Shown one piece after another: positions 9,346 to 58,940 of a stretch of DNA of 64,000 nt. Location of the stretch: positions 19,344,329 to 19,408,328 of the forward strand of contig OX387189.1 in NCBI GenBank assembly GCA_947561395.2, written 5' to 3'. Both the position numbers and the translations under genes were made by a program. The notes under the pieces are model-generated. The model saw only the letters and a program-made list of their open reading frames with translations, ran no database searches and was not told where the DNA came from. Each line of letters begins with the position of its first letter. Positions within the stretch are counted from its first letter, which is position 1. This DNA comes from Buxus sempervirens (taxonomy: Eukaryota > Streptophyta > Magnoliopsida > Buxales > Buxaceae).

Positions 9346-9497
9346 AATGGTATTGCCCCCCCCCCCCCCCCCCCCAACCACTAGCAAGCCCTTCAAGCCC
9401 CATGACTACTGAAGAATTCTTTGCATGCTTCATAGCAATTTCATCTACAAGGATCTTTTTCTTCTTTCTATTCTTTTTACGGGATGAACATAGTTTA
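9346..9497 (-). pseudogene. LINE ORF1 C-terminal tail fused in frame to ORF2, copy D1
   Basis: Last part of an ORF1 protein: a basic run (KKNRKKKK), the conserved ILVDEIAMKHAK motif, then a glycine run coded by a G(20) tract (C on the plus strand, 9356-9375), continuing without a stop into the ORF2 start. In other copies ORF1 ends in an overlap with the ORF2 ATG. Here the homopolymer length joins the two frames. Whether this is a replication or sequencing slip or a real fusion cannot be told from sequence alone. Confidence 0.7.
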
Positions 9498-15553: not shown

Positions 15554-17505
15554 GAAACATCTCTGGCCAAAGATGTTTCGGATGAGGAAATCAAAGATGT
15601 GCTTTTCAGGCTTAAGGAGGACAAAGCTCCCGGTCCCGATGGTTTCACATCTAAATTCTTCAAGATTGCATGGAACATAGTTGGGAAGGATACAGTGGAC
15701 GCTATCAGAAGTTTCTTCTCCTCTGGTGCTATGTTGAAGCAATTAAATGCAACCCTCATTACTCTTGTGCCGAAGTGTGGGAACCCAACAGTGGTAGGTG
15801 ATTATAGACCAATCTCATGCGTGAATACTGTGTACAAATGCATTTCAAAGATTATTGCAAATAGGTTGAAGGTTTCTATTGCCGATATTGTTGGAGACCA
15901 CCAAAGCGCCTTCATCCCACAAAGGTCAATATCTGACAATATCATGCTTGTCCAAGAACTCGTCCATAACTATCACTTGAATAAAGGCAGTCCGAAGTGC
16001 ATCCTCAAAGCTGACATTATGAAGGCATTTGACTCAGTCAATTGGGAGATTATTCCAAGTATTCTGAAATCCATGAACTTCCCTCAAAGATTCATTCAGT
16101 GGGTGATGGCCTGCATATCAACGACCTCCTCTCTTATCATCAATGGTTGTTCTGTTGGATACTTTAAAGGAACTAGGGGTCTTCGCCAAGGTGACACTAT
16201 ATCACCTTACCTATTTGTCTTGGTAATGGAGCTCTTCCATGGTATTCTTAAGAACAGATCATCCGGTGGATTCATCTATCACTCCAAATGCAAGAGAGTG
16301 GACTTAAAAGCCTTGACATTTGCCGATGACCTCATGATCTTCATGAATGGAGGGTCTTCAAAAAAAGATCTTCATGAATGGAGACCATGGATCCATCTCT
16401 ACTGTGATCAATTGCTTGGAGGAGTTTGGAAGCTTGACAGGCCTTCATATGAACCCGACAAAAAGTGTGATGTTTGCAAGTGCTGTCCCCCAGCAGGTAC
16501 TTGATTTCGTCACTAACTCCTTGAAGATTCCAATTGGTAAGCTCCCTATTCGGTACCTTGGACTCCCTATCATCTCCACAAGGCTTTCAATAAGGGATTG
16601 TGAACCTATTCTTGCAAAAATTCAGACCAAAATTCAGTCATGGAAAGCCCGATTACTCTCATACGCAGGAAGGACGTTGCTGGTAAGAACTGTTCTTTTT
16701 TCCACCATGGTGCACTGGCTTTCTAATTTCATTCTTCCCAAGCAGGTTATCAATGAAATACAGAGGCTTTGCAGAAACTTTCTTTGGTCAGTGGTGGACA
16801 ACCAAAGAAAAATTGTCCCTGTGAAATGGGAAGTCGTGGTCACCCCAATTGAGGAAGGAGGCCTTGGGCTAATAGATATGAATCGGTGGAACAAAGCGGC
16901 AATTGTTAAGCACCTATGGAGGCTTGTCTCTTCGAACTCTTCACTTTGGGTTCATTGAACAAAGACTTACTTGCTCAGGGGAAGAAATGTGTGGCAGATC
17001 AACGCTCCACAATCAGCAACCTGGGTGTGGAGGAAAATCCTAAAGAGCCGTGATATTGCTGCGGATTTTATTAAGTATGAGATTGGGAATGGTATGCACA
17101 CCAGCCTTTGGTGGGATATCTGGCACCCCAAAGGTATTCTTCTCAAGGCATATGGTGAGAGAATAAGATACGATGCTGGGATCCCCCTAACTGCCCCTGT
17201 GGCTGCCATTATTTCTGGAAATGCATGGAGTCCTCCTATCGCACAAAGCCATGACTTGATTGAAGCTTGGGAGGACCTTCACAACCTCCCAAATCCCGAC
17301 CATGCCAGGACAGAAATGACAAGGTCATATGGAAGCTCAACTCTTCTGGTATGTTCTCTATCAAGTCCACTTACAATGCTATTAGAATACAAATGCAAAA
17401 GGTACCTTGGAAGAAGATTGTTTGGTTCAAAGGATGCATCCCCAAGCATGCTTTCATCCTTTGGCTCTCTATCCACCAGCGACTCTTGACCCAAGATAGA
17501 CTGTT
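15554..17505 (+). pseudogene. LINE ORF2 (RT), copy E, first part
   Basis: RT from SLAKDVSDEEIKDVLF and KAPGPDGFTSKFF (near 15625) to the region before zf-RVT. The catalytic box reads FADD at 16319-16330. Lesions: a 31-bp direct duplication (GATCTTCATGAATGGA at 16336 and again at 16367) that shifts the frame right after FADD, an in-frame TGA at 16956-16958, and a frameshift near 17320. The polypeptide then reaches HAFILWLSIHQRLL, where D2 interrupts it. Non-functional well before or after D2 arrived. Confidence 0.88.
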
Positions 17506-23007: not shown

Positions 23008-23794
23008 CTCAGATAAGATACAGAGGCGCCATCAAGCCAACGACAGCGATCCAGGTCGATGGAAGACCAGGCAAGAAACACCACCCCCGACGATATTCTG
23101 CCCGACGATAGAAGACCAAAAAACGATAATCAGGACAACCCGGAATCAGAAAACTGCCAACGATAGACTTTCCCAGGCGATAATCTGTCCGACGATAACT
23201 GCCCGACGATAACTGTCCGACGAAACTGCCCGACGATAACTGTCCGACGAAACTGCCCGACGATAATCTGCCCAACGAATAATGTCCCAGACTGAGAACT
23301 GCCCGACGATAAACTGAATCAGAGCAGCCCCGGAGCAACAAGCTAAGCAGCCGCTAACAACGTCCAGAAGTAAGCCAGCAAAATCCCACAGCACGAACAG
23401 GAACTCGCATCCACGATAATAAGAAACGCGGCAACCGACTGATATAGGACAACCACAAACGGAAAGCCCCAACCACGAGAAACTGGAATCTCCGGCCACG
23501 CACAGAAACCCCGACCAAGCACAGAACTCACGGAAAACCAGAGCCACTGCAGACGACGACCACGAACCGCTATCCCTGGCCACGTACAGAGATGAAAGGC
23601 AGACCACACGCTGCCTTAGAAGACCACTGGTACCAGGTCCAAAGAGACACTGAATGCCGCCTGAGCCAGGCCGCCAGCACCAGCACCAACCCTTCGCCAC
23701 ACCAGCACCACACGACCACCAGCACCAGCACCACACGACCACCACTCGCCCAGCACCAGCACCAGCACCTCACGCACCAGCACCAGCACCACAC
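23008..23794 (-). repeat. Repeat-built 5' UTR of LINE D2
   Basis: Two repeat types. 23160-23310: plus-strand GCCCGACGATAACTG and TCCGACGAAACTG units in tandem, with a near-exact double copy. 23690-23790: CACCAGCACCAGCACC and CACACGACCACC units right up to the 5' end, read on the sense strand as GGTGCTGGTGCTGGTG. It lies where the internal promoter of a LINE would be. Promoter activity is an inference. Confidence 0.7.
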
Positions 23795-26490: not shown

Positions 26491-27802
26491 ACCCTGTTCA
26501 TCCTTGCTTGCATTTCTTCTCTAGACCACCTTGGCCGTCCTGCAAACTGTGCTCCCTGACCAGTGTTTTGGTTTTCCCCTATTAGGTGCAGAGAAATGGA
26601 AAGGCTTGTTTTGCTGGACATAATTGATCGCCTTATCTTCTTTCTTCCTATCCATACCTTTTCCACCAACAAGGCTCCTTTTTGGCTCAGAAAAACCTGC
26701 CACTCTGCCGGACTTGACCCCATCCTCTATTCTGTCTGCCACCACCATGAGATCTGCGAAGCTTGCAGCACATTGCCCCAGTAGCAGTGTGTAGTACGGC
26801 TGCCCCAGTGTCGAGATAAACAATGTCACCATCTCTTTTTCCAGCACAGGGGGTTGGACCATCGCAGCCATTTCCCTCAATCTCTTTGCGTACTCACGGA
26901 TGTACTCGGTGCTCTTCTTAGACATTTTCTGTAATTCCATCCTAGTAGGTAAAACCTCAATGTTGAACTTGAAGTGTTCGAGGAATGTGCTTGCCAATCC
27001 CATGTCCTGATTTGGTTCCTGTCCAGACTAGCGAACCACTTTTGTGCCGATCCCATCAAGGAGCGTTGGAAGAATTGGATCATGATCCTTTCGTCGTATG
27101 CATACTGGCACATGTCGCCATAGTATGCTCTTAGGTGTGATAATGGGCACCCACTTCCATCAAACTTTACAAAGTCTGGGCACTTGAACTTTGGTGGAAG
27201 TTGCAGATTCGGGAAGAATCCCAGCCTATCCAGTGAGGCTTCTCTTGGAACGGGGCCTCGGTTCATGATCTGCACTTGTTCCTTCAGTTCTTGTAAATTC
27301 GCTTGCATCTAGGCTGTGACACCCGTCGCTTCCTGCCCTCGATACCATTCTTCTTCTTCATGCCCCATTCCTTGTGGCATTACTTGTTGCTTGTGGAATA
27401 GCAGGGGGTGCTGAAATCCTCAATTGTGGCTTTGGTTGGACTGGCAAAGGTTGAGGAATTTGCTACTCTGGTGGTTGCATATTTGGCTGTGGAAGAGCCC
27501 ATGGTGGCTGTTCTAGTGGTACTGGCAATGGTCGAGGAGCCTGTTGCTGTGGTTGTGGTGCCGGTGGTTGCAATGGAGGTACTAGCAACCATGGTGGACG
27601 TATCGGCAACTGCTGTTGTGGCTATACAAACTGTTGCGGTGCTTGCAGCCTCTCCATTTGTTGCATCATGGTCGCCATCATGGCTGACATGTTGGCCATT
27701 TGCTGGTTAAGGCCGGTGATTATTGGATGGTCTTCCAGGTTCTCCTGCTCTTGGGGTGGAGGTGGAGGTGGAGGTTGTGCTTGTCCTTCCGTAGGATCCA
27801 TC
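26491..27802 (-). pseudogene. Ty3-type gag, broken
   Basis: Gag of a minus-strand LTR retrotransposon. Likely start ATG at 27802 (MDPTEGQAQPPPPPP), a Pro/Gln-rich N-terminus, then a Met/Gln-rich helix (MANMSAMMATMMQQM), an in-frame TAG shortly after, then PPKFKCPDFVKFDGSGCPLSHL and GSAQKWFASL (retrotransposon gag domain) up to a frameshift near 27000, then LEHFKFNIEVLPTRMELQKM and IREYAKRLREMAA to the junction with copy M. It lies downstream of LTR1 on the same strand, consistent with LTR - leader - gag. The zinc knuckle and pol are absent here, probably lost at the M junction. Confidence 0.82.
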
Positions 27803-28853
27803 TAAAGACTTCTTCTGGAACGCAGGAGGTATGGGCTATGATTTGCAATCTTGGAACCTTGGTAAAATTAAAAGGGGAAACAAGTTAGCACAAAGAATTC
27901 ATATTGCATTGAGATATAATGCATGTCAATGCAGATTATTTGTGATCTTTTTTATTTCCATATTTGATTGGGATGTGGAAACTCGAAGAGTTGATTTCTA
28001 GAGGATTGGTTTGGGAAGCTTAGAGAATTGGTTAAAGGTTTGGAGTTGTGTAAACGCAAAGTGTTGATTTCCACATTGAGCTCTGGAAATGCAAACCGTT
28101 GATTTCCAGAGGGTTTTCAATTTCCTAAAAGTTTAGAATTGTGGAAACGCGAAGCGTTGATTTCCACAACGAGCTCTGGAAACGCAAAACGTTGATTTCC
28201 AGAGGGTTTGGGATTTTTGGGAAACTCAAAGCGTTGATTTCCATAGGGCTGGGGATTTTGGGAAACGTAAAGCGTTGATTTCCCTAAGCAGTGGAAACTC
28301 GAAGAGTTGATTTCCACTAGGTTTGGGTTTGTGGAAACGCGAAGCGTTGATTTCCACATTGTGCTTTGAAAACACGAAGGGTTGATTTCTAGAGGGTCTG
28401 AGATTGGAACCAGAAGTTGATTTCTAAGAATGGCATTTTGACTTATTTGACCTTTCTTTTGATTTGAAGTCTTTTTTCCTTCTCTTTTTTTTCTTTTTGA
28501 TTTTTAGTTCGACTGATGACCATCAATTAGGAACAAACTCATCCTTGATTTTCCTGATTTATTATTTTGGCTGAGTCGTAACCAATTGTTTTTGCTAAGA
28601 ATTGCCCCTTCTTGATTAGGCTGAAGCTGGCTGAGACACAAAGAATTGAAGCCATTCATTGCCCCGAGGCAAGCTCGATGCACACCCGGAGGCAATTTTG
28701 ATTTTGGGAATCTTTTGTGCATTTCTTTGAAAACGACTTGACAAGATATGCTCATGCGGACGATCTTAAAGTGTGTGCACATGATGCATGAAAAGATGTA
28801 CATGATTAGAGCAATGGTTAAATGATATTACCATTTGGCAAATTTGTGTCAAC
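27803..28853 (-). other. 5' leader of Ty3-type element between LTR1 and gag
   Basis: About 1 kb without a credible coding frame. Its centre is the hairpin minisatellite described separately. 28430-28850 shows no repeats I can recognise. A standard PBS next to LTR1 is not evident (the sequence after the presumed LTR end reads GTTGACACAAATTTGCC on the minus strand), so the exact LTR1 edge is uncertain. Confidence 0.6.
27975..28425 (-). repeat. Hairpin minisatellite in retrotransposon leader
   Basis: Eleven units of about 27 bp, spaced 27-50 bp, starting at 27975, 28048, 28081, 28141, 28174, 28217, 28260, 28291, 28331, 28363 and 28406. Each is built as outer arm, inner arm, a 3-5 nt A-rich or GAA loop, inner arm complement, GATT, outer arm complement. 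Outer pairs vary together: GTGGA with TCCAC, CTCTGGA with TCCAGAG, GGGA with TCCC. Inner pairs vary too: AACGC with GCGTT, AACTC with GAGTT. Unit 1 and the last two are decayed. Confidence 0.9.
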
Positions 28854-30706
28854 TGTGGTCACCTAAATCTGGCCTAGATCGCACACGGGGCGCACGTGGA
28901 GGTTCGTACGTGCCTCGGGACATTCGGAGTCGCCACTGCCTGAGAAGTGCAGGCAAACATGGTGTTTGCCTTATCCGGGTCTAAGTCTGGTCTGCGGCTT
29001 TTCAGAGTTCTAGCTAAGTCCTCGGTTACGTCCGGGAAAGTCCAAAGACACCCCGGCCCGCCCCGTCGGTTTGACGGGTCCCTCGGGTCTCCCTGGTTTT
29101 GAGTCAATTTTCACCCTTCCTAGGCCAGCATGCCACTTTGTTTGGTCTGGCGGGACCCTCTGGTGGTGTGGACCCCTTTTTATTTTATCTTTTTATTTAG
29201 GTGAGATGGGTCGGGTACGGGTCCCGTTGGAAGACCCGTGGGTTGCCAAGGTTGGGCTTGGGGCCCAGTAGGGTTATTGGGTAACCCCTTTTGGTTTATT
29301 ATTTAAATTATTTACAGACGCCATGGGCTTAATGGGCTTGGAGTTGGCCCATTAGCCAAAGGTCAAGGGGCCTGGGCCTGTTTATTGAAAACAGGCCTAG
29401 TATAGGCCAGTCAAAATGTGGGCCACACATGTGGGCCCGGGGTGTCTTGGTGGGCCCGTTTAAGCCCACGATCTAAAAGGGACTCAAAGAAGTCCAAATT
29501 ACTTAAGAGGCTAGTTCAGGCCGGTTCAGGTCGGGTTTGGATCCAACCGGATAAAAAAATTTACTTTTTAGTCATTTTGAAGGATATGACCGCACTTGCT
29601 CTGCGGTTTGGTCTGAACCGCAGATGCAGTGCGGTTTAGACCGGACCGCAGATCAATTGCGGTCATGTGCCGACCGCTCTGAGTATGCGGTTTTTGCTTG
29701 TTTTCGCCGTTTTGCTCCGATTCCGGCTGGGATCACTCCGACAGGTCCTTTAGGAGGTCTGGTGACATCCGTTGGGGTTCCAGCATCTTTAAGGTGCTCC
29801 ATTTGCTTTATTTGGCCTAAAAGGCCTTTTTCTCTCCTCTCTTGCATTCTTTGGAGATTTGAGATTTTGTTTTAATCACTTGTTGTCAATCTCAAGAAGG
29901 AAAGGGAAGGGATAACTGTCTCATGTATGGGATACATGAGACAGTTCAAAGGGATAATTGCCTTCTTTAGAAATGTCATGGAATGGGTTTCTTTTTACCC
30001 ATTTTTGCTAAAGGCTCTCTTTTTCCACCTTTTGAATGAGTTCTTCCCCTTGTCATGGGGAACTCATCATCATGCCACAGAGAGGAAACAGGTGAGAAGT
30101 AGTAAAAAAAATAAGAAGAGAAATCAACTTAACAAAGAACTGAATTTATTGAAATTTACCCAAAAGCATTCCTTTAGTGTTACCTTTCACTTCTGTTGTG
30201 TTTTGGATTTCCCGAGTAATTTGAGCAGCGCTTCCGCTCCTCCTTTGATTTTCCGAATTGGGTTTGAAAAGGGGTTCTTTTATTTTTAGATTGGAAGGAG
30301 ATTGAAGGTGAGGAGAAGGGGCATGGTCTTGTGATTTTTCAGAGAGATTTTGGCAGCACTTCCGCGCTCCCGTTCATTCTCCGAAATGGGGTTGAAAGGG
30401 GGTTCTCCTAGAATTTTGGCAGCGCTTCTGCGTCTCTGCCGGTTTTCTAAATTGGTTTTGGCAGGGGTTCGATGGGTTATCTACGCTTACAAGGTGGAAA
30501 AGCAGAGTTTGGGCATGGTTTGGGGGTAGCCTAAGGGTATTTTGGGGTTTGGGTATTGAGGGAGATGTAAATTGGGTAAAGCTTGGACGTGGTAAAAGAC
30601 CAAGAAGAAGAGGGGAGGAGCTGTAGGAGAGAGCAAGAGGGGGAGAAGGAAAGGGGATTTCTTGATGGATTGAAATTGGGGGGGGGGGGGGGGGGGGGTG
30701 GCCCCC

Positions 30707-30715
30707 CTTTTATAG
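30707..30715 (-). promoter_or_regulatory. TATA box of LTR1
   Basis: Minus-strand CTATAAAAG, next to a G-rich run (G21 on the plus strand, 30678-30698) just downstream. The position matches TATA boxes in LTR2, LTR3 and LTR7. Confidence 0.6.
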
Positions 30716-30869
30716 TTGAAAATGACCTGAAACTGAATTTTAATCACCTTTTTTGACTGAATTTTAATTTCTTGTTTGACATAACTAAAACGTAAATATT
30801 TTTTATTCTTATCTCTCCACATCATCTTATCCTACGAATGTGGTTAGTATTTTTTCTTTATTTTAATCT

Positions 30870-32031
30870 TGAAAGAGTAGGAGACTATTCTACAGGTCCT
30901 CGATCTACAACAATTTTGATCTTAACAATACGGAAACATACACACAGAATTTATACGAGGAAACCTGAATCCAGATCCAGGAAAAACCTCGAGTCTATAT
31001 GAGGCGACTAACCCTTAGAATCTCCACTATTAAATGAAAAGCAATTACAAAGGAAAACACACTTAACCTTTACAATTGAACTCACTCAACAGCAATCCAC
31101 AGCTCGAATCCACGAACTGTAACACAACTTGAATCCACAAGCTGCAATTCACGATCAATCCAGATCGTAACAATCACCTCAGAGCCCACTGAGATGATCC
31201 AATGCAATAGGAATCCACCTATGCATCCATAGCTCGATCACCAATCCAGGAGATCATACGATCATGTGAAGTTCCGAAATGAAGAAGAATCCTCAAACTT
31301 CAATTCCAGGAGATCTCTCTCAGATCTCCCCCTCACTCGATCACCGACTCTCTAAAGATGAATTGATTGAATCTCGAACACCTCAAGATCCAAATCGAAT
31401 TGATCAAAAGAAAAAGTCCTTTCTAAAAAATACAGCTCGTCTATTTAAAGAAGAAAAACTCAGATCGCATCGAGCGCTGGTGGCGTCGCCTTGCGATCGG
31501 GGTAGACGGCTGGAAGCGAACTCAAGTCCCGCTCAAATCCAAATTGACCCAGTTAAGGGCGCGCTGCCAGCGTGCTGCTAGCGGGAGGGAACGCGGCATG
31601 TGCACAACTGATTTTTAGATTCTTCAATCTTGCTCTGCGCTACCAGCGGCGTGTCGGCGTCGTCTTACGACGCAGGTGTGCGTTCTTTACTTTCAAAGCA
31701 CTGCATGACTCATGCGCTATCAGCGGCGTATCAGCGTCGCCTTACGACACAGGTGCGCGTTCTTTATTTTCAATGCGCTATTTCACTTATGCGCTGCCAG
31801 CGGAGTGGTAGCGGCGTTGTTCCTCGCAAGTGCCTTTACGAAATATTCTTTATTTAGAAAACCTTACATTTCCTTGAGCTACCAGCGAAGTGGTAGCTGT
31901 GTGGCAGCATCACCTTCCTCTTTACTAAATTCACAGAACTTACATTTTGATTCTGCACATCTTGAAGATTATTAGAAGATATAATTTGTCAAACATTTGC
32001 CATATAAGGAGTGTGAGTTTTCACACTTACA
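30870..32031 (-). mobile_element. Copia-like solo LTR, 1,162 bp, inside LTR1
   Basis: Minus-strand LTR with TG...CA ends (TGTAAGTGTGAAAAC at 32031, ending CTACTCTTTCA at 30870) and an exact 5-bp duplication AATCT (30865-30869 and 32032-32036). The 3' part contains the sequence style of plant Copia R-U5 (GAGGTTTTTCCTGGATC, TTTCCTCGTATAAATTC). There is no internal region and no PBS or PPT next to it, so it is a solo LTR left by LTR-LTR recombination. It carries the tandem array at 31637-31913. Confidence 0.9.
31637..31913 (-). repeat. About 80-bp tandem array with short hairpins in Copia-like LTR
   Basis: Units begin at 31637, 31712, 31791 and 31875 with GCGCTACCAGCGGCG, GCGCTATCAGCGGCG, GCGCTGCCAGCGGAG and GAGCTACCAGCGAAG. 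Several contain inverted arms (AGCTACCA with TGGTAGCT in the last, TCGTCTTACGACG in the first). The arrangement lies in U3 of the solo LTR. Function unknown. Confidence 0.75.
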
Positions 32032-32219
32032 AATCTTAAGATTCTTTAAGTTTTAATATTATTTTATTCTTTAAGATTGGTTTGTTAGAAGACACATGTC
32101 TTTTCTATTTTCTATTTTATTTTTGATTTAGTTTAATTGTTAAATATTTACAAAATATTATTATTTTATTCTTAGATTTCATTTTTATTTTTATTTTTTT
32201 TGTCCTTTCTTCAATTTTG

Positions 32220-32700
32220 CCACATGGGCAGATTTTTTGAGATTTTTGACTACTCATAACTTTTTCATTTGATATCCGATTTCAGCAAACTTAGTGGCGT
32301 TGGAATCAGATTAAAATCTTCTATCTACTGAGCTAGAGTTTGGCAACAAATTCGGGCTTTTTAGCAGAAGTGCAAAGTCGCGTCCCGGAGCCAGTTTTGC
32401 TCATATCTCCTTATCCGGGACTTCGATTCCAGCAAACTCAATTGCGTTGGAGTCGTGTCGATGCGCTCTTTCTGCTGATGTCCAATTGAGCAGCTAATTT
32501 GGAGTTTTGTAGAAAGTCGATTTCTGCTATTTCCAGACTTGACCAGCCCATAACTTCTTTATCTGGACTCCGATTTGAGCAAACTCAGTTGCGTTAGAAT
32601 CGTATCGAAGTCCTCTTTCCAATGGTATAAAGTTTAGTGGTCAATTTGTACCCGAACAAAAAGTCAAATTTTTGACCCCTTAGGTTTGACTTTTAATTTG
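32220..32700 (-). repeat. U3 tandem repeats of LTR1
   Basis: Three to four degenerate units of about 120-140 bp, each marked by GCAAACTTAGTGGCG / GCAAACTCAATTGCGTT / GCAAACTCAGTTGCGTT and TCGATTTCTGC-like blocks. The same unit type occurs near the start of LTR2, LTR3 and LTR7. Confidence 0.7.
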
Positions 32701-32747
32701 ACTTTTTATTTTCTTCATTTCAGGGGTGCAAAAATCAAGTGTCTACA

Positions 32748-34110
32748 TCAACAAATGAATGTCAAAAGCACAACAAAGAAGTGTGTGCACAATCCTAAAA
32801 AAGGTTGGTGTCCCGTGGGGCACAACTCTTAGACATACTTGTGTACGGAAGCACGTCTGAGTCCTGATCAACCCTTTGTCTTTCATTTGTTCTTTCATCT
32901 GCTCTTGCTGTTGGGCCACAGCAAAAAATTACAACTTGTCATCGAGGGCGAAATTTACATATTATTTACAAAATCTACAAAAGATTTGCCTTTAGGGCTG
33001 TCGAGAGCCCAAAAGGAGGGTACAAATTTGCTTCAAAGCAGGTAGGCTGAATTCCTAGACCTAGGGTTTTATGCCCCTATTATGATATGGCCCACTTCTG
33101 TCTGACCGTCTGATCTGACCGGCTTTCATCTGCTTAAAAGGCCAATCTAGACCCAGGGTGCTCCCAGAGGACTCAATGGGTCAAGGCCCATGGCTCACGT
33201 GACTCAATGCATGGATCTGGGGTGGCTCCCCTGATCAAACTTTGGTTGGCTTCCTAAATTAGGGCTAAGACAGCCCATGATCTAGGGTTTACTCAATTTG
33301 ATGCAAAAGGCGGGGGTTGTTGCCCCTGATGGACTCTTGGGTTTTAAATTGATTTTACTTTTATTATTTCCAAAATTCACATTCTCATTCACAAAATCCC
33401 GGTTTATTTAGAAACAATAGGTAGGAAAGGGGTACCTAGCTTGAGGCATCCGCTTACAAGGGTCTAAGCAAAGCACTAGACCCTCGCGTACCACGGCAAG
33501 AAACCAGTGGCGCTAAGAAATCCAGAAACCTGGGGAGATGGGTTTACCCTGCTTTCCTCGGCAAGCCACGGGAGCGTGGGACTAATACCATCCCAAGGAC
33601 AAGTTCATAGGAATCATAAGGGTGACTGCTAGAGAGGTCTAAGTTTTGGTGAAGAAGAGCACCATTCCTTCCATTTATTTAGAATCGGATCATCCATGCA
33701 ATCCCCCTCATGCATGTCACCCCATGTAGTAATTAAAGCCAGATAAAACTCAACCACGGTGTGGTGGGTGCCTGTGTGTGCAGTTGGGCTGAGTGCTGTG
33801 TCTAATTAGGTGAGTTTTGATTTGGATATTTTATTGATAAAGGGTTCCTTGCTGTCTTTTTATAGTGAAGTGCAAAATTGGCACGCAATACAATGTTCTG
33901 GGAGAGTCCCTAAGTAAGTGGAGGGGTCACAGCGGTCGCACTTAAAATCCACAAGCCTTAGGCAATTATCTTGTCATTTGTGAAAGGACTCCCTAGAACA
34001 CGTAGTTACGCGTATTCTACATTTCACTAAAGAAAAACAAGTAGTTACTAAACCAATTTATACCCACCTAAGCTGACTCTTTTAAACCAGGGTCTGGCGG
34101 TGTTGAGAGA
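32748..34110 (-). other. Leader of the element primed at 34111, non-coding
   Basis: About 1.36 kb between LTR1's start and the PBS next to LTR2. No credible frame, no clear repeat. In the minus direction it follows LTR2 and the PBS and so is the untranslated leader of that element, cut by LTR1. The sequence before LTR1 is not a polypurine tract, so LTR1 is not the 3' LTR of LTR2's element. Confidence 0.6.
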
Positions 34111-34128
34111 TCCCCAGCGGAGTCGCCA
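34111..34128 (-). other. Primer binding site
   Basis: Minus strand TGGCGACTCCGCTGGGGA, 3 nt after the end of LTR2 (...GCGCACA, AGC, PBS). It starts TGG as expected for pairing with a tRNA CCA end. This PBS type is the one I associate with Tat/Ogre elements (tRNA-Arg); the tRNA identity is from memory of the family, not tested here. Confidence 0.8.
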
Positions 34129-34731
34129 AGCTGTGCGCATGGACTCTCGCACGAGCAGGGCACACGTGGAGTGCGTGTCTCGGGGGATTAGGAGTCGCCA
34201 CTGCCTGATTGGGTGCAGGCAGACACCAAGGTGCCTGGTCATGTCTATTTAAGTGGTCTGCGACTTTTTGGAGATTCCGACCAAGTTCTTGGTTATGGTC
34301 CGGGGAAGTCCCAGGACACCACGGTTCGCCCTGTCGGTTGACGGGTCCCTCGGGTTTCCCTGGTTCAAGTCAACTAAATCTAACCCTATTTCCTGGGCCA
34401 AACATGCACAGTTTAAGTCTGAGTGGAGACCACCAAAGGTGTGGGTCCCCTTCTTTTTATTTAATTTTATCTTTTAATCCCTTAGTGAAATGGGTCTGAT
34501 ATGGGCCCCGTTGGAAGGCCCATTGGATTCCATGTTGGGCTTAAGTCAAGCCCAAGGGCCATCTAGGGTTACGTCGGATAACCCCATTAGTTGGATTTGG
34601 TTGTTTGGTTTGGAGGTTAATTAAATATACAAAAATTGGTGAGTTCAAGATTTTTAAGGCCCATTGGGCTTGGGAGATGGTCCAAGAAATTAATCAAATC
34701 GCCCTTGGTGCTCGTCGTTGAAATGGTCCTT

Positions 34732-35126
34732 TTTTTTTTTTTGCAAAGTAAGTAAATAATATATAAAAAAGGGAAGAATATACAACATAAGAGCTTCACC
34801 CCACCCTGTGGCGCAAGCTACCAGAGCCAAAGCTCACAATTACAGAAACACAACCCCCCCCCCAACCTACACGAAATCACATAATCACACCTTACACATT
34901 CCAATTTCTCACCACCTGCTGCTCCAAAGGGGTGGCCTTTAGTCGCACCCTCGCTGTGATGATCTTGTCCCTGACATCATGAATAATGTGGTTAAGAACC
35001 ACTTGATGTGGTAGGAAACTATTGTTGAACGTTCTCCTGTTCCTTTCCCTCCATATATGATAAATTGTTGCTGTAAAGGATAGCTTCATTACTACGTGGC
35101 GAAAGGATAGCTTCATTGCTATGAGG
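34732..35126 (-). mobile_element. 5'-truncated LINE (copy Q) inside LTR2
   Basis: 395-bp LINE 3' end, minus strand, with poly-T at its left and an exact 16-bp duplication CGTTGAAATGGTCCTT (34716-34731 and 35127-35142). It codes for the last residues of ORF2 (TIYHIWRERNRRTF, stop near 34895). At its 5' end AAAGGATAGCTTCATT is present twice (about 35077 and 35102), a small junction duplication. Confidence 0.93.
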
Positions 35127-35852
35127 CGTTGAAATGGTCCTTGGTTTGGGCTGGACGAGATGTGGGCCCCGTTGGAAGGCCCACAAAGCTTTGTTGGGCC
35201 CGAGTGGGCCCAAGTCTCACAAAAGAGGGCCCGGGTTGACCTAGAGGCCCTAAGGGATCTTATTAACATGATTTGGGTTGAAACACGTGGGCCAAGACCC
35301 AAAGAAACGAAAATTGGGGGTTGACTAGGTCTGTCCGCACATATAGTGCGGACAGGCTTGGTCCGCACTATATCAGGGGATCCAGCTCAAATCCCCAAGA
35401 ATTCCGAAACTACAGGGGGGGCTATGGTCGCCCACCTCCCAAGGATATTTGCAAACTGCTGTGGGTCTCTGAGCAGACCCACAGTGGCTTCAATGATACA
35501 CTTTTGGCCAAAACACCACTTTTCAAGCTGGGTTTTCGAAGGAAAAGAAGTGGAGAAGCTTGGGGCTTCTCCCACCTCCCGGAATCGACGCTCAAGGTCT
35601 GTTGTAGGGGCCCTAGAAGCCCCCATTTCTGGTGCTAATGGGTATCTTCCTTCTCCTCCATGAGGAGAGAAGAAACAAGGCCCAATCGGCCTCGATCACA
35701 AAAAGAAGAAAAGAAGAAGAGAAGTTCAAGGGGTATTTTGGGTATAAAGGGAAGGTTGGGAGGTGAGGGAATGGCTTCAGGTGGTTAATGGACGTGGGGG
35801 ACCAGTAGGGACAAAGGGTAGAACAAGCCTCTTGCAATGGAGGATGTGGGCC

Positions 35853-35862
35853 CTATTTATAG
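35853..35862 (-). promoter_or_regulatory. TATA box of LTR2
   Basis: Minus-strand CTATAAATAG followed by GGGCCCAC, the same arrangement as in LTR7 (CTATAAATAGGGGCCCAC). Palindromic words flank it at 35905-36045 and 35335-35385. Confidence 0.7.
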
Positions 35863-36169
35863 AGAAAGACAAGCCAAATCTGCAGATAGTAAATGGATTG
35901 GCCCTGTCCACATACTAAGTGCGGACGGATTTTGCATGTGCGCTATCGCGGCGAAATCTGCCATGTGGCATTGTGGATAACGATGGATCCACATAGTATG
36001 TGTGGACGAGGTGCATCCGCACATACTATGTGGACAACACCTTTTAAATGGGCGAATATCAAATCTTATCCCATTTTTGAGAATTTTATCCTTTTTTTTT
36101 ATTTATTTTAAATATAAAAATCGAGATATTTTTATAAAAATTAATATTTTATTTGTTTTGTTCTTTTCT

Positions 36170-36650
36170 GCTCTTTTGCCACGGGGCAGTTTTTCTGAAA
36201 CTTTGACCTACCATAACTCTTTCATCCGATGTCCGATTTTAGCAAACTTAGTGGCATTAGAATCAGGTCGAGATTCCCTATCCACTAAGCTAGAGTATGG
36301 CAGCAAATTCTGGTTTTTAGGAGAAGTGCAAAACTGCGTCCCGGAATCCAGTTTTGCTTATATTTCCTTCTTCGGGACTCCGATTTCGGCAAACTCAGTT
36401 GCGCCGGAATTGTGTCGGGATCCTCTATCTACTGGGGTCAGTTTGGGCAGCTGAATTAGGCTTGAGTAGAAAGGCAATTTCTGCTCCTTTAAGTTTGACC
36501 AGCCCATAACTTCTTTATTCATACCCCGATTTGAGCAAACTCAGTTGCATTAGAATCGTGTCGGAATTCTTTATTCAATGGGAAGAAGTATGGCAGCAGA
36601 TTTGCACCAGATCAAAAAGTCAACTTTTGGCCCCTCAGGGTTTTGACTTT
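36170..36650 (-). repeat. U3 tandem repeats of LTR2
   Basis: Three units of about 120-140 bp on the model of LTR1: plus-strand TTTAGCAAACTTAGTGGC, GGCAAACTCAGTTGCGCC, GAGCAAACTCAGTTGC mark the units, each followed by a GTCGGGATCCTCTAT-like block. Confidence 0.7.
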
Positions 36651-36712
36651 TTGCTTAGGGTTTTCGTTTTCTACATTTCTTGGAGGTGCAAAAATGAGGT
36701 GTTGACAAATAT

Positions 36713-44139: not shown

Positions 44140-45872
44140 GGAGAGCCTTTATTGAGATGGTAATTTCTGAATAACTCATGGGTTAACAAGATATTGTCCG
44201 CCATCCTTCTATCGGGAATGAAGGCCGACTGGTGCATGCCAACCAAGGGAGCAATTACAGATTTCATCCTGTTAGCTAAGATCTTTGAAATGCATTTGTA
44301 GATGGTGTTAACACATGAAATAGGCCGATAATCAGAGATCGATGCAGGCTTACCCTTCTTAGGAACGAGACTAATAATGGAGTGATTCACCTGCTTCAGA
44401 AGCCTTCCTGAGAAGAAGAAGGATTTAATGGCATCTGTGACATCTTTCCCAACAAGGTCCCAAGCTTTCTTGAAGAATGCAGGGGTGAAGCCATCAGGGC
44501 CAGGGGCCTTCTCATCCTTAAGTGAGAACATTGTAGTCTTGATCTCATCGTCCGTAGCGACAGCCTGCAACATTTGAATCTGATCATGGCAAAGAAACCG
44601 GTCAAAATTAGCCTCAAAGGGCTCAAGGGACCCATCCTTCTCACCCAACAAACTGGAAAAATGAGATACAATGTGCTGCCTTATCTGAGCTTGGTCAGTA
44701 ATCTCCCTTACAGTATTGTCCATCAGTTTGGATATGGAGTTGTAGGAACGTCTGAAGATAACAGAATTAAAGAAAAACTTAGTACTCTGATCACCTTCTT
44801 TCAACCACTGAATTCTGGATTTCTGCCTGTATTGTGCTTCCTCAACTCGCAAGAGACCTGCCAGGTCCTTTCTGAGCTTCCCTTCCAAAGAGGAGAGGTG
44901 AGAATCTGAAGGGTTAGTATGCAAAGCCTTCTGACAAAGCTCAAGTTTGCCCCGAACATCCGCAACTTTGATTGAAGCTTGGGCAAATTGTTTCTGTCTG
45001 CTCCATTCTTTCAATCTGAGTTTTAACTTCTTAAGTTTGGAGCTAAGTTGAAACATGGGCTTACCAGCTACCGGCATTCTCCATACGTCAGCAACCAAAG
45101 GTAGGAAGTCATCATTGGAGGTCCAGAAGTTAAAGAACTTGAAAGGTCTATTGCTTTTCAGCATGAGTGGATCAACTGAAACAAGAACAGGACTGTGGTC
45201 AGAGATCCCAGGAGGTAAAAAATCAATCTCAGAGTGGTTGAATTGATTGATCCAAGCAATATTGACGAGCACACGATCCAATTTGCAAGAAATACGCCTT
45301 TGACCGGCACTCATGTTGCTCCAAGTGTGCACGAAGCCTTTGTAATTCATTTCAATCAGAAAGCAGTCACTGATGCAAGATTTGAAGTCCTGAGTAGCAA
45401 GCATGTTTATTTTGTTACCTCCAACTTTTTCAGAAGTCTTTCTAACACAATTAAAATCCCCAATCAGTAACCAAGGACTATCCACAGAGCAGAGGCGCAA
45501 GCTTCGCCAAAGATCCCTCCGAACCATGGCATCATTATCCCCATAGACGAAGGATAAGTAAGAAGTTTTGCCAGTGGCCACGAACTCAACCCAGCAATGA
45601 ATAAGTTGGTGTGAGTCAAAAACTTTCCGAACAGAGACAGCCAAGGGGTCATAGCAAAGCCAAATACGACCTTTCAGTGCATGATCATAGTTTGTGATAC
45701 AGGTCCAAGTTGGGCATATTAACCTTTGAACATAGTCAGCATTGATTCTTTGAACTTTCGTCTCCACAAGACATAGCATGTTAAGCCTTTGAGAAGCTAA
45801 GAGATTAATAACTTCTCGTTGCTTAGATGGATCATTAAGACCCCTAATGTTCCATGTTGCGAACTTGATCAT
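44140..45872 (-). pseudogene. LINE ORF2 first half (endonuclease, RT start), copy N
   Basis: From ATG 45872 (MIKFATWNIRGLNDPSKQ) open to the O insertion at about residue 578. Endonuclease: NIRG, VETKV, GDFNCVR, TWSN, LDRVLVN, SDHSP, all present. RT block: KAPGPDGFTPAF, RPISCVNTIYKC, ending at SPRCTLKI, continued at 39090. No stop in this half. The few extra codons reading past 44139 belong to the duplicated target and tail of O. Confidence 0.9.
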
Positions 45873-47485
45873 GGGGGGGGGGGGGGGGGGGGGGGGGGCA
45901 GAAGAGTGTTGGAGCTACTACAGGAAACACCTGATTTGGAGGAGAGGGACAAGGATGGGTTTGCGTTCTTGGCCTCCTTCATTGCAATCTCGTCCACCAG
46001 CAGTAGCTTCTTAGCTTTCTTACGCTGCTTCTTTGATAGAGAATTAGGGCTCATGTACAGATTTGGCATCTCGTTCAGGAGTTCAAACTGGTTGGGACTC
46101 ATCCCAATACCAGCTTGTTGGGCCTGGGTCGCATGATCCAAAGTTGCATGCATCGGAATAGCGAGCTCAACAGCCCCAACTTGCTCAACGGATTCAACAC
46201 CCGCACCTGATTCAACATTCACGAGCTGAACAGCCCCAACTTGCTCTACAGCCTTGTCAACATTCACGAGCTGAACCGTCCCAACATGCTCATTCTCAAC
46301 GGGTTTCTCCAATTGCGATAGGTTGCTATCAATACCATGATCAGAAGGTAGGTTGCTATCAACATTCATGGCCTGCTCCTGAGTGTTCCCTTCAACGATA
46401 ATTCCATCCGGAAGTTCTGAGATATCAAGAATAGATGAGAAACGTCTTCCTGTTGGCCTCCACTCCCTAGCCCTTACCTGAGAGCATCTAGATTCAGAGT
46501 GTCCAAAGACATCACAAACCTTGCACTTGATAGGTTTCCAACCAAACTCAGTACGAATGACTGAGGTTGAATTCTGAAATCCATGTTGCACGTATATTTT
46601 ATCTGGAAAGGTGCACTGGGTATCCACTTCGACACAGACGCGAGCGAAGCTCAGCTTGGAGCGTTTTTCTGTCATCTCATCAAGATACAGCGGTTTACCA
46701 ATGCCGCTAGCAATGAAGCTTAATCCCGTAGGTGTCCAAAATTCAAGAGGAACGTTAAACAACTTCACCCAAATTGGAACCTTAGAGAGTTGGGATTTTT
46801 CGAGTAAGAGATTTGGCTCCCATTCTTTGAATACCATCAGACGGCCAGCCATGTACCAAGGACCCTGGTGGAGAACCTTGTCTCTGACTGAGGATGACGA
46901 AAATCTCAGGACGTAGAAGCCATTATCGATGCTAAAGATGTCCACTTTCCCCCACATCTTAAAAGCCAAGCTTTTGATAACATTCAGAGGAAGGTTTCTG
47001 TCCAAGAAATACCCAATAAGACAGCCCTTCCAAACGTCAATACCTTGATTAATAACCTCGAGTGGAGGAGAAACCAATACTTTGCCGTCAACAATCCTTG
47101 GGGCAAAAAACGATAATTTGGCTTTATCAGAAATCTCAGAATGGAAAAGTTCAGACCAAGACTTTCCTTTCTTAGCTTGGCTCGAATACGGTGCTACAAG
47201 ATGAACAGATGTGTCGCCCAAACAAGGATCTGGGACACTGCAATGCTCCTGCAAGACAGAGCCGGGCTGAACAGCTGAGGTTCCGCTGGAACACTGTCCC
47301 AAGTCAGCGCTGGCAGGAGAAGAATACAGTGGCGGGAACATATCAAAAGAGGATCGGCGATCAGAAGCATGGCTAAAGATCTGCTCGTCAACAACGTGCC
47401 GATTAAATGACATGCCTGCCGGAGCAGACGCCGGCACACTAGTCGGCTCGGCAGGCCGACCAGAAGGAGGCAGCGGAGAAACCAT
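45869..47485 (-). CDS. LINE ORF1: DUF4283-like and CCHC protein (N), poly-Pro end
   Basis: 538 residues from ATG 47485 (MVSPLPPSGRPAEP, as in D2) to TGA 45869-45871. Pro/Ser-rich N-terminus; DUF4283-like domain (PPLEVINQGIDVWKGCLIGY to LSFARVCVEVD); zinc knuckle CKVCDVFGHSESRC; imperfect repeats EQVGAVQLVNV and EQVGAVELAI; basic KKQRKKAKK then LLVDEIAMKEAKNA; then a polyproline end coded by a C(26) run (G on the plus strand at 45873-45898). The stop overlaps the ORF2 ATG (ATGA). The polyproline end is not in D2 and depends on the homopolymer length, so the final codons and even the overlap phase should be treated with care. Confidence 0.88.
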   Translation of the reverse strand: MVSPLPPSGRPAEPTSVPASAPAGMSFNRHVVDEQIFSHASDRRSSFDMFPPLYSSPASADLGQCSSGTSAVQPGSVLQEHCSVPDPCLGDTSVHLVAPYSSQAKKGKSWSELFHSEISDKAKLSFFAPRIVDGKVLVSPPLEVINQGIDVWKGCLIGYFLDRNLPLNVIKSLAFKMWGKVDIFSIDNGFYVLRFSSSSVRDKVLHQGPWYMAGRLMVFKEWEPNLLLEKSQLSKVPIWVKLFNVPLEFWTPTGLSFIASGIGKPLYLDEMTEKRSKLSFARVCVEVDTQCTFPDKIYVQHGFQNSTSVIRTEFGWKPIKCKVCDVFGHSESRCSQVRAREWRPTGRRFSSILDISELPDGIIVEGNTQEQAMNVDSNLPSDHGIDSNLSQLEKPVENEHVGTVQLVNVDKAVEQVGAVQLVNVESGAGVESVEQVGAVELAIPMHATLDHATQAQQAGIGMSPNQFELLNEMPNLYMSPNSLSKKQRKKAKKLLLVDEIAMKEAKNANPSLSLSSKSGVSCSSSNTLLPPPPPPPPP

Positions 47486-48380
47486 CTCAGATAAGGTTCA
47501 GAAACGCCATCGACCCAACCACGACCAATACGATCACAGAAGCACCCACAACCCAACCACGAGCAAGAAGCTTTTCAAAATAGCCTCCACAAATGGATAA
47601 CCTTCCCAGAACGATAATCTGCCAAACTAAAGAACAATAATCTGCAAAGCTTCACGAAACAATAATCTGCCAAAACGAAAACAGCCCACACGAAAACTGT
47701 CCAACGATAATCTGTCCAAACAATAATCTGTCCAAACGATAAATAGCCCAACGATAACTGCCCAACGAATCTGGCCAAGCTTCACGAAACGTACGCCAAC
47801 TCGAACACAGACCACACGGAACGGAGACTCCGCACGCAGGCAGAACTCCTAAACGAAGCAAGCAACCACGATACTGGCAACCGCGAACAGAGCCCAAAGC
47901 TTGCACAATCCGAACAAACCACCTGCCAAACTAAAGCCAAAACGCAGACCAGCTAGAGCCGACGCTTCCCGATAATCAGAGTGGCATGCAACCAGGGGCG
48001 GAACCATGCAACTGCGAACAGAAGCCCACGCCGCGAACAGAACTCACTACAGCTGAACGGAAGCTAGCGGCCACGAACAGAAACCCACAGCCACGGATAG
48101 AGCCCCACAGCAACAGGAGCTCACTACTGCGGAAAGCTCACATCCACGAACTGAAGCTCACTACTACGGAAAACTCACGACCACAACCACGTATTGAAAC
48201 CACAGCCCAAATGAACCCTCCACGAACAGGGTCCCCAGGCCACAAGCAGATCCTAGATGCGAGATGGAAATGGCAGAAAAAGGAGGTTCAGGCGAGATGG
48301 GGTTTAGGAGAGATGGGGATGAGGTTCAGGCGAGATGGGGTTCAGGCGAGATGGGGTTCTGGATATTTTAACATGTTTGT
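47486..48380 (-). repeat. Repeat-built 5' UTR of LINE N
   Basis: 47600-47770: plus-strand ACGATAATCTGCC, CAATAATCTGCC and AACGATAACTGCC units, shared with D2. 47990-48230: CCACGAACAGAA-, CCACGAAC- and CTCACTAC-type units. 48270-48360: GGCGAGATGGGGTTCA units, three or four copies, at the extreme 5' end. No coding frame believable. Confidence 0.7.
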
Positions 48381-57934: not shown

Positions 57935-58940
57935 TGTTTCTGGTGGCAGTGAGCAGGTTGGTCGTGAGTTTCTGGTGGTCGCGAGCAGGTCGTCGTGGTC
58001 GTGAGCAGGTGGTCGCGAGCAGGTAGGAGGCAAGTTGTTGGCAGTGAGCAGGTGGTCGTGAGTTTCTGGTGGTCGTGAGCAGGTCGTCGTGGTCGTGAGC
58101 AGGTGGTCGCGAGCAGGTGGTCGTGAGCTGGTGGTTGTGAGTTCCTGGCTCGTGAGCTGGTGGTAGTGTGCTGGTGGTCGTGTGCTGGGGGTCGTGAGTT
58201 CCTGGTTCGTGAGCTGCTGGTAGTGTGCTGGTGGTCGTGTGCTGGTGGTCGTGAGTTTCTGGTTCGTGAGCTGGTGGTCATAAGCTGTGGCAGTGAAGGA
58301 GCTTTGGTTCGTGAGCAAGGAGTTTCTGCTTGTGTGCACGGGATCGTGAGCAAGCAAGGTCCTGGATTTGTGGGAAGGTGCTTCTGGTTTGTGTTGTCGT
58401 TGGGAACAGCACACAGTTTCTGGTTCGAGGTCGTGACACGGTAGTCGGGTGCTGTGATTGGTGTCGTGTGCCGCGGTAGTTGGGACTGCAGTATCTGGTT
58501 TGTGTGAAGTTGCTACTGGTTCGTGCTGTGACAGTGATGGTGTTTCTGGTGCGGGGCGGCGCTTCTGGTTTGTGAGTAGGTGTTGTGAGCAAGGAGTTTT
58601 GTGTGTGTGCACAAGGTTCGTAGGTTGCTGGTCGTGTGCTGTGCACAAGGAGCTTCTGGTGTGTGGCAGTGAAGGCTTCTGGTTTGTGCATAAGGAGCTT
58701 CTGGGCTGTCTCCTGGTGCGTGTGCAAGACTCGCGGGCAGTCGGGTGCGCAGAACTCGTGGGCTGTCGGGAGTGTGCGCAACTATCCGGTTTGTGCGCAT
58801 TGGTTGTGAGCAAGGCCTGTGTGAGCAAGGCCTGTGGGCGCAACTCAGCAAGCTTCACAACTATCCGGTTTGAGGTCGTGAGCATCATCTGGGTTACTGG
58901 AGCTGGGTCTGCGTGCTGGTTCGATGTGCTACTTTTGCTG
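57935..58940 (+). repeat. Repeat-built 5' UTR of LINE P
   Basis: About 1 kb of degenerate units based on GTGGTCGTGAGC, GAGCAGGTGGTCGCGAG, GTTTCTGGTTCGTGAGC and GTGTGCTGGTGGTCGTG, with a long near-exact double copy around 57955-58020 and 58045-58110. Units become looser towards ORF1 (GCTTCTGGTTTGTG, GTGAGCAAGG). G-rich on the sense strand. Confidence 0.85.

Follow-up and report, generated by a model that had tools for sequence, protein, structure and literature searches.

Retroviral packaging signals are located just before gag, in the region that extends from the primer site to gag. Among plant LTR elements, BARE of barley belongs to copia, a superfamily other than gypsy. For this element conserved dimerisation and packaging signals have been described (PMC3735527). 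Short repeats are known from other noncoding parts of large elements: in the largest non-chromovirus elements the noncoding regions are expanded and often include tandem arrays (PMC6317226), tandem arrays of unknown function are found between pol and the 3' LTR (PMC11963269), and the Ogre elements carry tandem arrays in the 3' UTR (PMC7004042).

The locus described here is an array of small hairpin units in a 64-kb stretch of the Buxus sempervirens genome (the window), in which many LINE frames and LTR sequence are present. The gag-like frames of the host element are found on the minus strand, so that the element RNA corresponds to the strand opposite to the one read in an earlier first-pass annotation. 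The element may be a Tat/Ogre-like gypsy, a tentative label that is based on gag and primer-binding-site features; Tat-clade elements carry an additional, archaeal-type RNase H domain (PMC6317226). Its parts were assigned as follows.

26521–27801, minus strand: gag, frame broken in the window copy, start codon at 27801–27799 (sequence, Pfam).
27802–27974, minus strand: stretch of about 170 nt that separates the array from gag (sequence, copy comparison).
27975–28425, minus strand: unit array (anchors, folding and pattern matches; arrays at 38 further places in the assembly).
28426–28853, minus strand: leader part B, about 0.43 kb (copy comparison).
28854–32747, minus strand: inserted segment TG...CA with a 5-bp duplication, TCAAC (sequence, copy comparison).
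32748–34108, minus strand: leader part A, about 1.34 kb (copy comparison).
34109–34128, minus strand: primer-binding-site-like sequence TGGCGACTCCGCTGGGGATC, read by eye, 3 nt from the LTR end.
34132–36707, minus strand: LTR upstream of the leader, approximate ends (self-comparison, similarity to the inserted segment).

Wherever these parts co-occur, their RNA-sense order is LTR, primer-site-like sequence, part A, part B, array, the stretch of about 170 nt and gag. Sequence matching 27806–27975 was seen in 34 of the 39 places with arrays, the window's own counted. A Retrotrans_gag domain (PF03732) is present downstream of the leader, as judged from copy L035 (E 1.3e-10, 41.8 bits, cut-off 24.1); one of the window fragments gave E 0.0012 and 19.4 bits, below this cut-off, and the other no match.

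The inserted segment (3.9 kb) starts with TG and ends with CA on the plus strand, and copies of TCAAC flank it at 28849–28853 and 32748–32752. Because both its ends resemble the two ends of the host LTR (28888–29259 and 34158–34542, 71.6% alike; 32189–32742 and 36147–36702, 77% alike), we interpret it as a related family's solo LTR that landed in the leader. Parts A and B abut in nine of the 19 other copies fetched with 8–9 kb (L032, L033, L034, L037, L038, L039, L040, L042 and L048), their matches overlapping by three to five bases. In copy L037, sequence related to the inserted segment is found at the leader end in the opposite orientation. The array had initially been placed between the first LTR and gag; the position upstream of gag holds, but the host LTR ends at about 34132 and the insert splits the leader. 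A primer site at 28938–28926 was considered and rejected, the sequence falling inside the inserted segment. For the primer-site-like sequence at 34109–34128, one place in the genome fits a tRNA-like pattern, but ARAGORN does not predict a tRNA at that place. Self-comparisons of parts of the window revealed no second LTR of the host element.

Other repeats were recorded in the window. The first frame of one LINE (45869–47485) ends in a run of 26 C on the coding strand (45873–45898), directly 5' of the ATG of the second frame (45872), and another LINE has 20 G on the coding strand at 9375–9356, a short distance 5' of where its second frame starts; these runs are possibly slippage or restart sites, or due to chance. 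Two similar tandem arrays, at 23178–23316 and 47608–47768 with units like CGATAACTGCCCGA and AAACGATAATCTGTCC, each lie 120–180 bp upstream of a LINE first-frame start on the minus strand. At 57940–58296, inside a 407-codon minus-strand frame, there is a dense minisatellite whose periods include 14, 57 and 94 bp.

The array itself consists of eleven hairpin units, mostly spaced by 32–42 bp. The anchor TTGATTTC was found for eleven units (27987–28424), and the pattern GGAAA-N4-AA-N3-TTGATTTCC, with at most two mismatches, was matched by ten of them. By chance, the window should contain 0.21 matches of this 23-letter pattern. The eleven-unit leader array of the first-pass annotation is borne out. 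An eleventh window match of the pattern is located at 15586 (minus strand), outside the array. The units are listed below.

27977–27999, minus strand: unit 1 core, GGAAA...TTTCT (pattern match; folds weakly).
28050–28072, minus strand: unit 2 core, GTAAA...TTTCC (pattern match; alternative fold).
28085–28107, minus strand: unit 3 core, outer arms CTCT/AGAG (pattern match, folding).
28143–28165, minus strand: unit 4 core, outer TGT/ACA, inner CGC/GCG (pattern match, folding).
28178–28200, minus strand: unit 5 core, outer arms CTCT/AGAG (pattern match, folding).
28220–28242, minus strand: unit 6 core, inner arms broken (pattern match, folding).
28261–28283, minus strand: unit 7 core, outer pair G-C (pattern match, folding).
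28293–28315, minus strand: unit 8 core, inner CTC/GAG, outer AGT/ACT (pattern match, folding).
28333–28355, minus strand: unit 9 core, inner CGC/GCG, outer TGT/ACA (pattern match, folding).
28368–28390, minus strand: unit 10 core, degenerate (pattern match, folding).
28406–28425, minus strand: unit 11, degenerate, inner part of 6 nt (anchor, unit finder).

The outer and inner arm pairs named earlier are present in the sequence. Each unit had also been said to fold on itself, which is so for several units but not for all: in the RNA sense, those anchored at 28234 and 28275 gave −5.6 and −7.2 kcal/mol, those anchored at 27991, 28382 and 28417 are weak folders (−2.3, −3.9 and −3.4 kcal/mol), and the unit anchored at 28064 takes an alternative fold. 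Unit types are copied in blocks, one of 93 bp within the window array, and the eleven units are therefore not eleven independent cases but represent fewer types. A minus-strand frame through the array was rejected as a gene, because the unit spacings vary and no single frame is kept.

The unit hairpin is composed of three to four variable base pairs, the GGAAA/TTTCC pairs and three inner base pairs, with a TTGA bulge (UCAA in the RNA). The inner arms had been given as AACGC/GCGTT with an unpaired GATT, a register that was not borne out by 599 units. Against the TTTCC side, the fourth base of GGAAA forms A-T in 561 units and G-C in 31, with seven exceptions; against the T beside the inner arm it would form A-T in 558 and G.T in 35. 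As the fourth base co-varies with the TTTCC side and not with the inner-arm T, the register is shifted and TTGA takes the place of GATT as the bulge. The units differ in their loop, which starts with G on the plus strand in 353 of the 599.

Further copies were sought in the genome (676.5 Mb, 247 contigs). The array search gave at least 108 matches, with 40 of the 125 candidates scored; the matches were grouped by eye into 39 places, all of which were fetched. In two pairs of places (L036/L055 and L050/L066) the array pieces lie 4–7 kb apart, one with the leader and the other with the gag flank; by their sequence, these pairs look like halves of single arrays split by insertion, and the number of elements would then be perhaps about 37 and not 39. 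In all, 667 units were recovered, with a median of 16 per place and a range of 4 to 40; a few of these rows are not true units, such as a match with a 10-nt inner part at position 4570 of the window copy. The unit finder, which dropped chains of fewer than three hits, requires GGAAA and TTGATTTCC and tolerates no more than two mismatches, which inflates the conservation of these parts. After removal of 59 units whose inner segment is not 9 nt long, 608 were kept, and nine duplicates were further removed to give the 599 units of the tree tests. In arrays L063 and L068, some neighbouring units share an arm and are spaced by 22–25 bp, the TTTCC/TTTCT side running directly into the next AGAAA side.

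Spacing patterns recur among the places, for example 41-32-40-35, a block of about 148 bp with four unit types that occurs in many copies. In the 340 nt on the gag side, the identity between places is 35–93% with a median of 75% (578 pairs, 35 places), the lowest values including stretches that are probably not homologous; this divergence suggests that the array copies are old and most probably dead. Among the 40 best of 2706 gag candidates, 13 (the window's own counted) lie within 10 kb of the arrays found, and for the other 27 no array match was found within that distance by a non-exhaustive search. Since the search was of this kind and the arrays diverge, the gag counts neither show nor exclude that much of the gag family is without the array, which may not be general there.

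Covariation was tested against a null in which the changes of each column, kept in number and kind, were placed randomly on the tree of 599 units. The top four of the 990 column pairs by covariation (i1, o2, g3 and o1) are all stem pairs. Taken alone, i1 was the only one significant (family-wise p 0.028, with 0.36 for o2, 0.68 for g3 and 0.74 for o1), and by pairing excess no single pair was significant family-wise (0.44 for i1). Summed over the 12 stem pairs, the pairing excess amounted to 1.41, above all 600 tree nulls (mean 0.08, sd 0.20, maximum 0.95). Because the stem pairs had been named from the window units, a simpler pairing test was repeated without the window copy: the 589 distinct units from 38 places formed 8.72 of 11 pairs, whereas 200 re-dealings of left and right halves, a control which does not keep relatedness, gave 7.32 (sd 0.04, maximum 7.42).

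Consensus folding with RNAalifold, the window copy excluded, depended on the number of units. With 10 units the whole hairpin was among the commonest answers, with 20–40 the outer stem was often obtained alone, with 80 often nothing, and with 150 no structure was returned for either strand. The energy was below that of re-dealt halves in 17–20 of 20 draws at 10–40 units, and in 13 and 16 of 20 at 80 units.

Units were also clustered by their spacers only, which gave 22 types of at least five members that hold 496 of the 608 units, the other 112 being dropped. Across these types, 50 of 72 outer pairs are Watson-Crick, compared with 31.7 (sd 3.4) when permuted, and none of 20,000 permutations reached the observed value; at a coarser spacer cut the figures were 43 of 60 and 26.5 (sd 3.1). 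In their commonest forms, the second inner pair is split evenly between G-C and T-A (11 types each), the first core pair is G-C in 20 types and A-T in two, and the fourth core pair A-T in 18 and G-C in four; at the third inner position, 18 types have C-G and the other four no pair.

On the unit tree, the changes that start from a Watson-Crick pair were one-sided in 578 cases (148 on internal and 430 on terminal branches) and paired in 25 (counted over the 12 stem pairs, 15 of them on internal and 10 on terminal branches). The 15 internal double changes are divided into seven in the four outer, five in the five core and three in the three inner pairs; control sets of six pairs each (four slid sets and distal pairs) showed 0 to 2. 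One-sided changes as frequent as paired ones had been proposed as grounds to give up selection on structure, and taken literally the counts are of that kind; however, the one-sided predominance would be expected if most copies are dead, and 430 of the 578 fall on terminal branches, as in decay. That rule does not separate decay from evolution in a living lineage. The share of one-sided changes that break the pair is alike inside the tree (40 of 148) and at its tips (123 of 430), and by itself gives no support for purifying selection.

A second ground, amplification of one dimer unit, is in part true, as unit types have spread in the blocks of 93 bp and about 148 bp. In most places of a tree made from the flanks only (35 places), the gag-nearest unit has the inside CTC/GAG or a decayed form of it, and in the supported clade of L050 and L056, together with L035 and L043, it has CGC/GCG or a decayed form; the unit next to it also differs between clades. 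These between-clade differences are paired two-sided changes, but conversion by a neighbouring unit would give the same in one step, so that the independent origins of each pair are few. They would accordingly suit an account without selection, in which templated mutation in imperfect palindromes made the arms complementary and tandem copying spread them: the paired variants occur in repeated blocks which switch as blocks between clades, and few origin events are needed per pair. Terminal pair-to-pair changes are rare (10 vs 430 one-sided), which indicates little templated correction after insertion. Moreover, templated correction would tend to erase the bulge, the conservation of which this account leaves unexplained.

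This conservation was seen in a simple test that separates selection on the living element from decay of dead copies. Within each unit type, variants found in one place (private) were compared with those found in at least three places (shared), changes from C to T and from G to A being excluded and unit classes of fewer than 15 members dropped. Non-deamination variants of the bulge were private in 18 cases, one occurred in two places and none was shared by at least three, compared with 91 private and 85 shared for the spacers (p 2e-5); deamination-type bulge variants were three private and one shared. Variants of the core arms were 39 private and four shared and those of the inner arms 30 and 13 (p 0.04), whereas those of the loop (16 and 11) and of the outer arms (46 and 45) were not different from the spacers. 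On the tree, the bulge had no internal changes (at least three tips) and 32 terminal ones, against about 379 and 530 for the spacers (p 7e-8). Because the finder tolerates up to two mismatches in core and bulge, a shared change of the bulge could have been picked up, although some bias against it remains. Non-deamination bulge variants that are private and not shared by at least three places argue for selection that acted while the element was alive.

In the corresponding test of pairing, the cells of which count units and not events, pairing was retained in 190 of 424 shared and 11 of 109 private variants (p 1.5e-12). The effect came from the inner arms (118 of 156 shared, 4 of 31 private). 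For the outer arms the difference was not significant (64 of 254 and 5 of 37, p 0.15), while an outer control slid by −1 gave 58 of 123 and 0 of 8 (p 0.009), the other three slid controls not being significant; since the outer arms fail where a slid control passes, the test is informative about the inner arms and not about the outer ones. The first-pass claim that the units reflect selected structure and not tandem copying is thus partly supported, by the summed covariation, the spacer-typed arms and the private/shared tests, and is weakened by the block copying and the failure of the outer-arm test. On balance, selection on the structure appears highly probable, and its origin by templated mutation and copying without selection very unlikely.

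With respect to the strand on which the structure forms, isolated units fold alike on both (−7.8 and −7.9 kcal/mol, 200 sampled), with a gain of 0.82 kcal/mol for the RNA sense over its own shuffles (200 units), and the wobbles indicate no RNA-sense preference (internal 45 vs 63). In context the RNA sense folds better, with a stem pair probability of 0.453 against 0.264 for the complement, and is the higher one in 144 of 194 sampled units and in 36 of the 39 places; with DNA parameters the sense strand gives 0.473 and the complement 0.388. The spacers in the RNA sense contain A 33%, C 37%, G 9% and U 20%. The in-context folding is moderate evidence for the RNA form, and the structure has probably been selected at the RNA level.

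The sequence GCGAAGC is an extremely stable DNA mini-hairpin, and was correctly noted in the units at 28141 and 28331 as read on the plus strand, which is, however, the complement of the RNA. Its presence there, the equal folding of isolated units on both strands and the contiguous conserved GGAAATCAA, which could be a DNA motif, would agree with a function in DNA, either as an array of palindromic double-stranded binding sites (enhancer-like) or as a cDNA hairpin in reverse transcription. Against this, the outer arms vary like spacers and yet pair between types, unlike independent half-sites, and the complement folds less well in context even with DNA parameters; a function in DNA is considered distinctly unlikely.

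An effect on translation has also to be weighed. The leader upstream of the array contains 23–40 AUGs in the RNA sense in the six copies with a continuous-looking leader, and no open frame of more than 110 codons was found in them (AUG counts and frames of at least 80 codons were checked). The array is close to the gag start, and by a shunt or by internal entry ribosomes might skip the AUG-rich leader and arrive at gag, which lies about 170 nt further on. Shunt leaders are marked by a short upstream frame that stops just ahead of a strong structure. Nevertheless, AUGs are not specially depleted in the arrays themselves, with 279 in 32,268 bases in the RNA sense against 337 expected, and are more depleted on the other strand (287 vs 493 expected); in addition, a shunt would have no obvious need for a fixed bulge sequence. 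Such a role in translation seems unlikely.

The comparison of the copies supports the pairing, the covariation, the register, the conservation of the bulge, the location and the better predicted folding of the RNA sense. A fixed bulge, nearly fixed adjoining pairs and outer pairs that are free but paired form the pattern of an RNA hairpin read by a protein, the repetition and the G-poor linkers suggest many candidate binding sites per RNA, and the position just before gag, where retroviral packaging signals lie, favours a reading in which Gag packages the RNA. In the untranslated leader of this gag-bearing LTR retrotransposon, the array may therefore act as a multivalent RNA element, with hairpins that were selected and are probably read by a protein, a proposal to which we give slightly less than even confidence. 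In the genomic RNA, each unit would fold into a hairpin with three to four free base pairs and five mostly constant GGAAA/UUUCC pairs. The bases UCAA would bulge out on one side, three inner pairs would close a loop of three bases, and A/C-rich, G-poor linkers would lie between the hairpins. The living lineage would have kept the bulge sequence and the stem pairing while the stem letters drifted and the units were copied. A protein would read the bulge and the neighbouring stem; the element's own Gag would be the most likely reader, the repeated hairpins serving to pick full-length RNA for particles. The role of Gag in packaging, proposed from the position alone, is tentative. More doubtful is the further suggestion of a packaging or Gag-nucleating signal turned minisatellite, in which one RNA would carry as many as about 40 copies of the same protein-binding bulged hairpin, these would evolve by unit copying and paired drift, and their number would tune Gag recruitment and let families compete for particles.

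No Rfam family matched the window at gathering scores, nor the interval 27800–28860 at E values up to 1. A search of viral contigs with one unit pattern gave no exact match, the set possibly leaving outside it records near the genome of the window. No report of a hairpin minisatellite in a leader was found in the literature searched, outside which most subscription papers fall.

Compared with the described systems, the array resembles the 3' UTR repeats of the Tat, Ogre and Retand elements, as far as these are described in the passages concerned, in being a short, length-variable tandem array in a noncoding part of a large gypsy element. The arrays in the relevant passages of PMC7004042 and PMC11963269, the main texts of which do not contain the word "hairpin", lie downstream of the coding region, whereas the array here is located between the primer-site-like sequence and gag; wherever both are seen, it is on the upstream side of gag and not between pol and the 3' LTR. 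With BARE it shares the setting of a plant LTR element with dimerisation or packaging signals, which the passages of PMC3735527 concerned do not describe as tandem hairpins.

The packaging signals (psi) of retroviruses and retrotransposons are alike in their position just upstream of gag and in forming hairpins whose stems are paired while certain unpaired bases are conserved; such signals bind Gag and are needed for packaging. The location agrees, the array lying between primer-site-like sequence and gag. A conserved structure with conserved unpaired bases is likewise indicated by the comparison of copies, the one-sided changes, the outer-arm test and the RNAalifold result at 150 units being the counter-results. 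In contrast to psi, one small hairpin, known here from the comparison of copies, is repeated as a minisatellite with 4 to 40 units per place. The comparison yields a concrete prediction for the array, a bulged hairpin with the bulge fixed and the stem free but paired.
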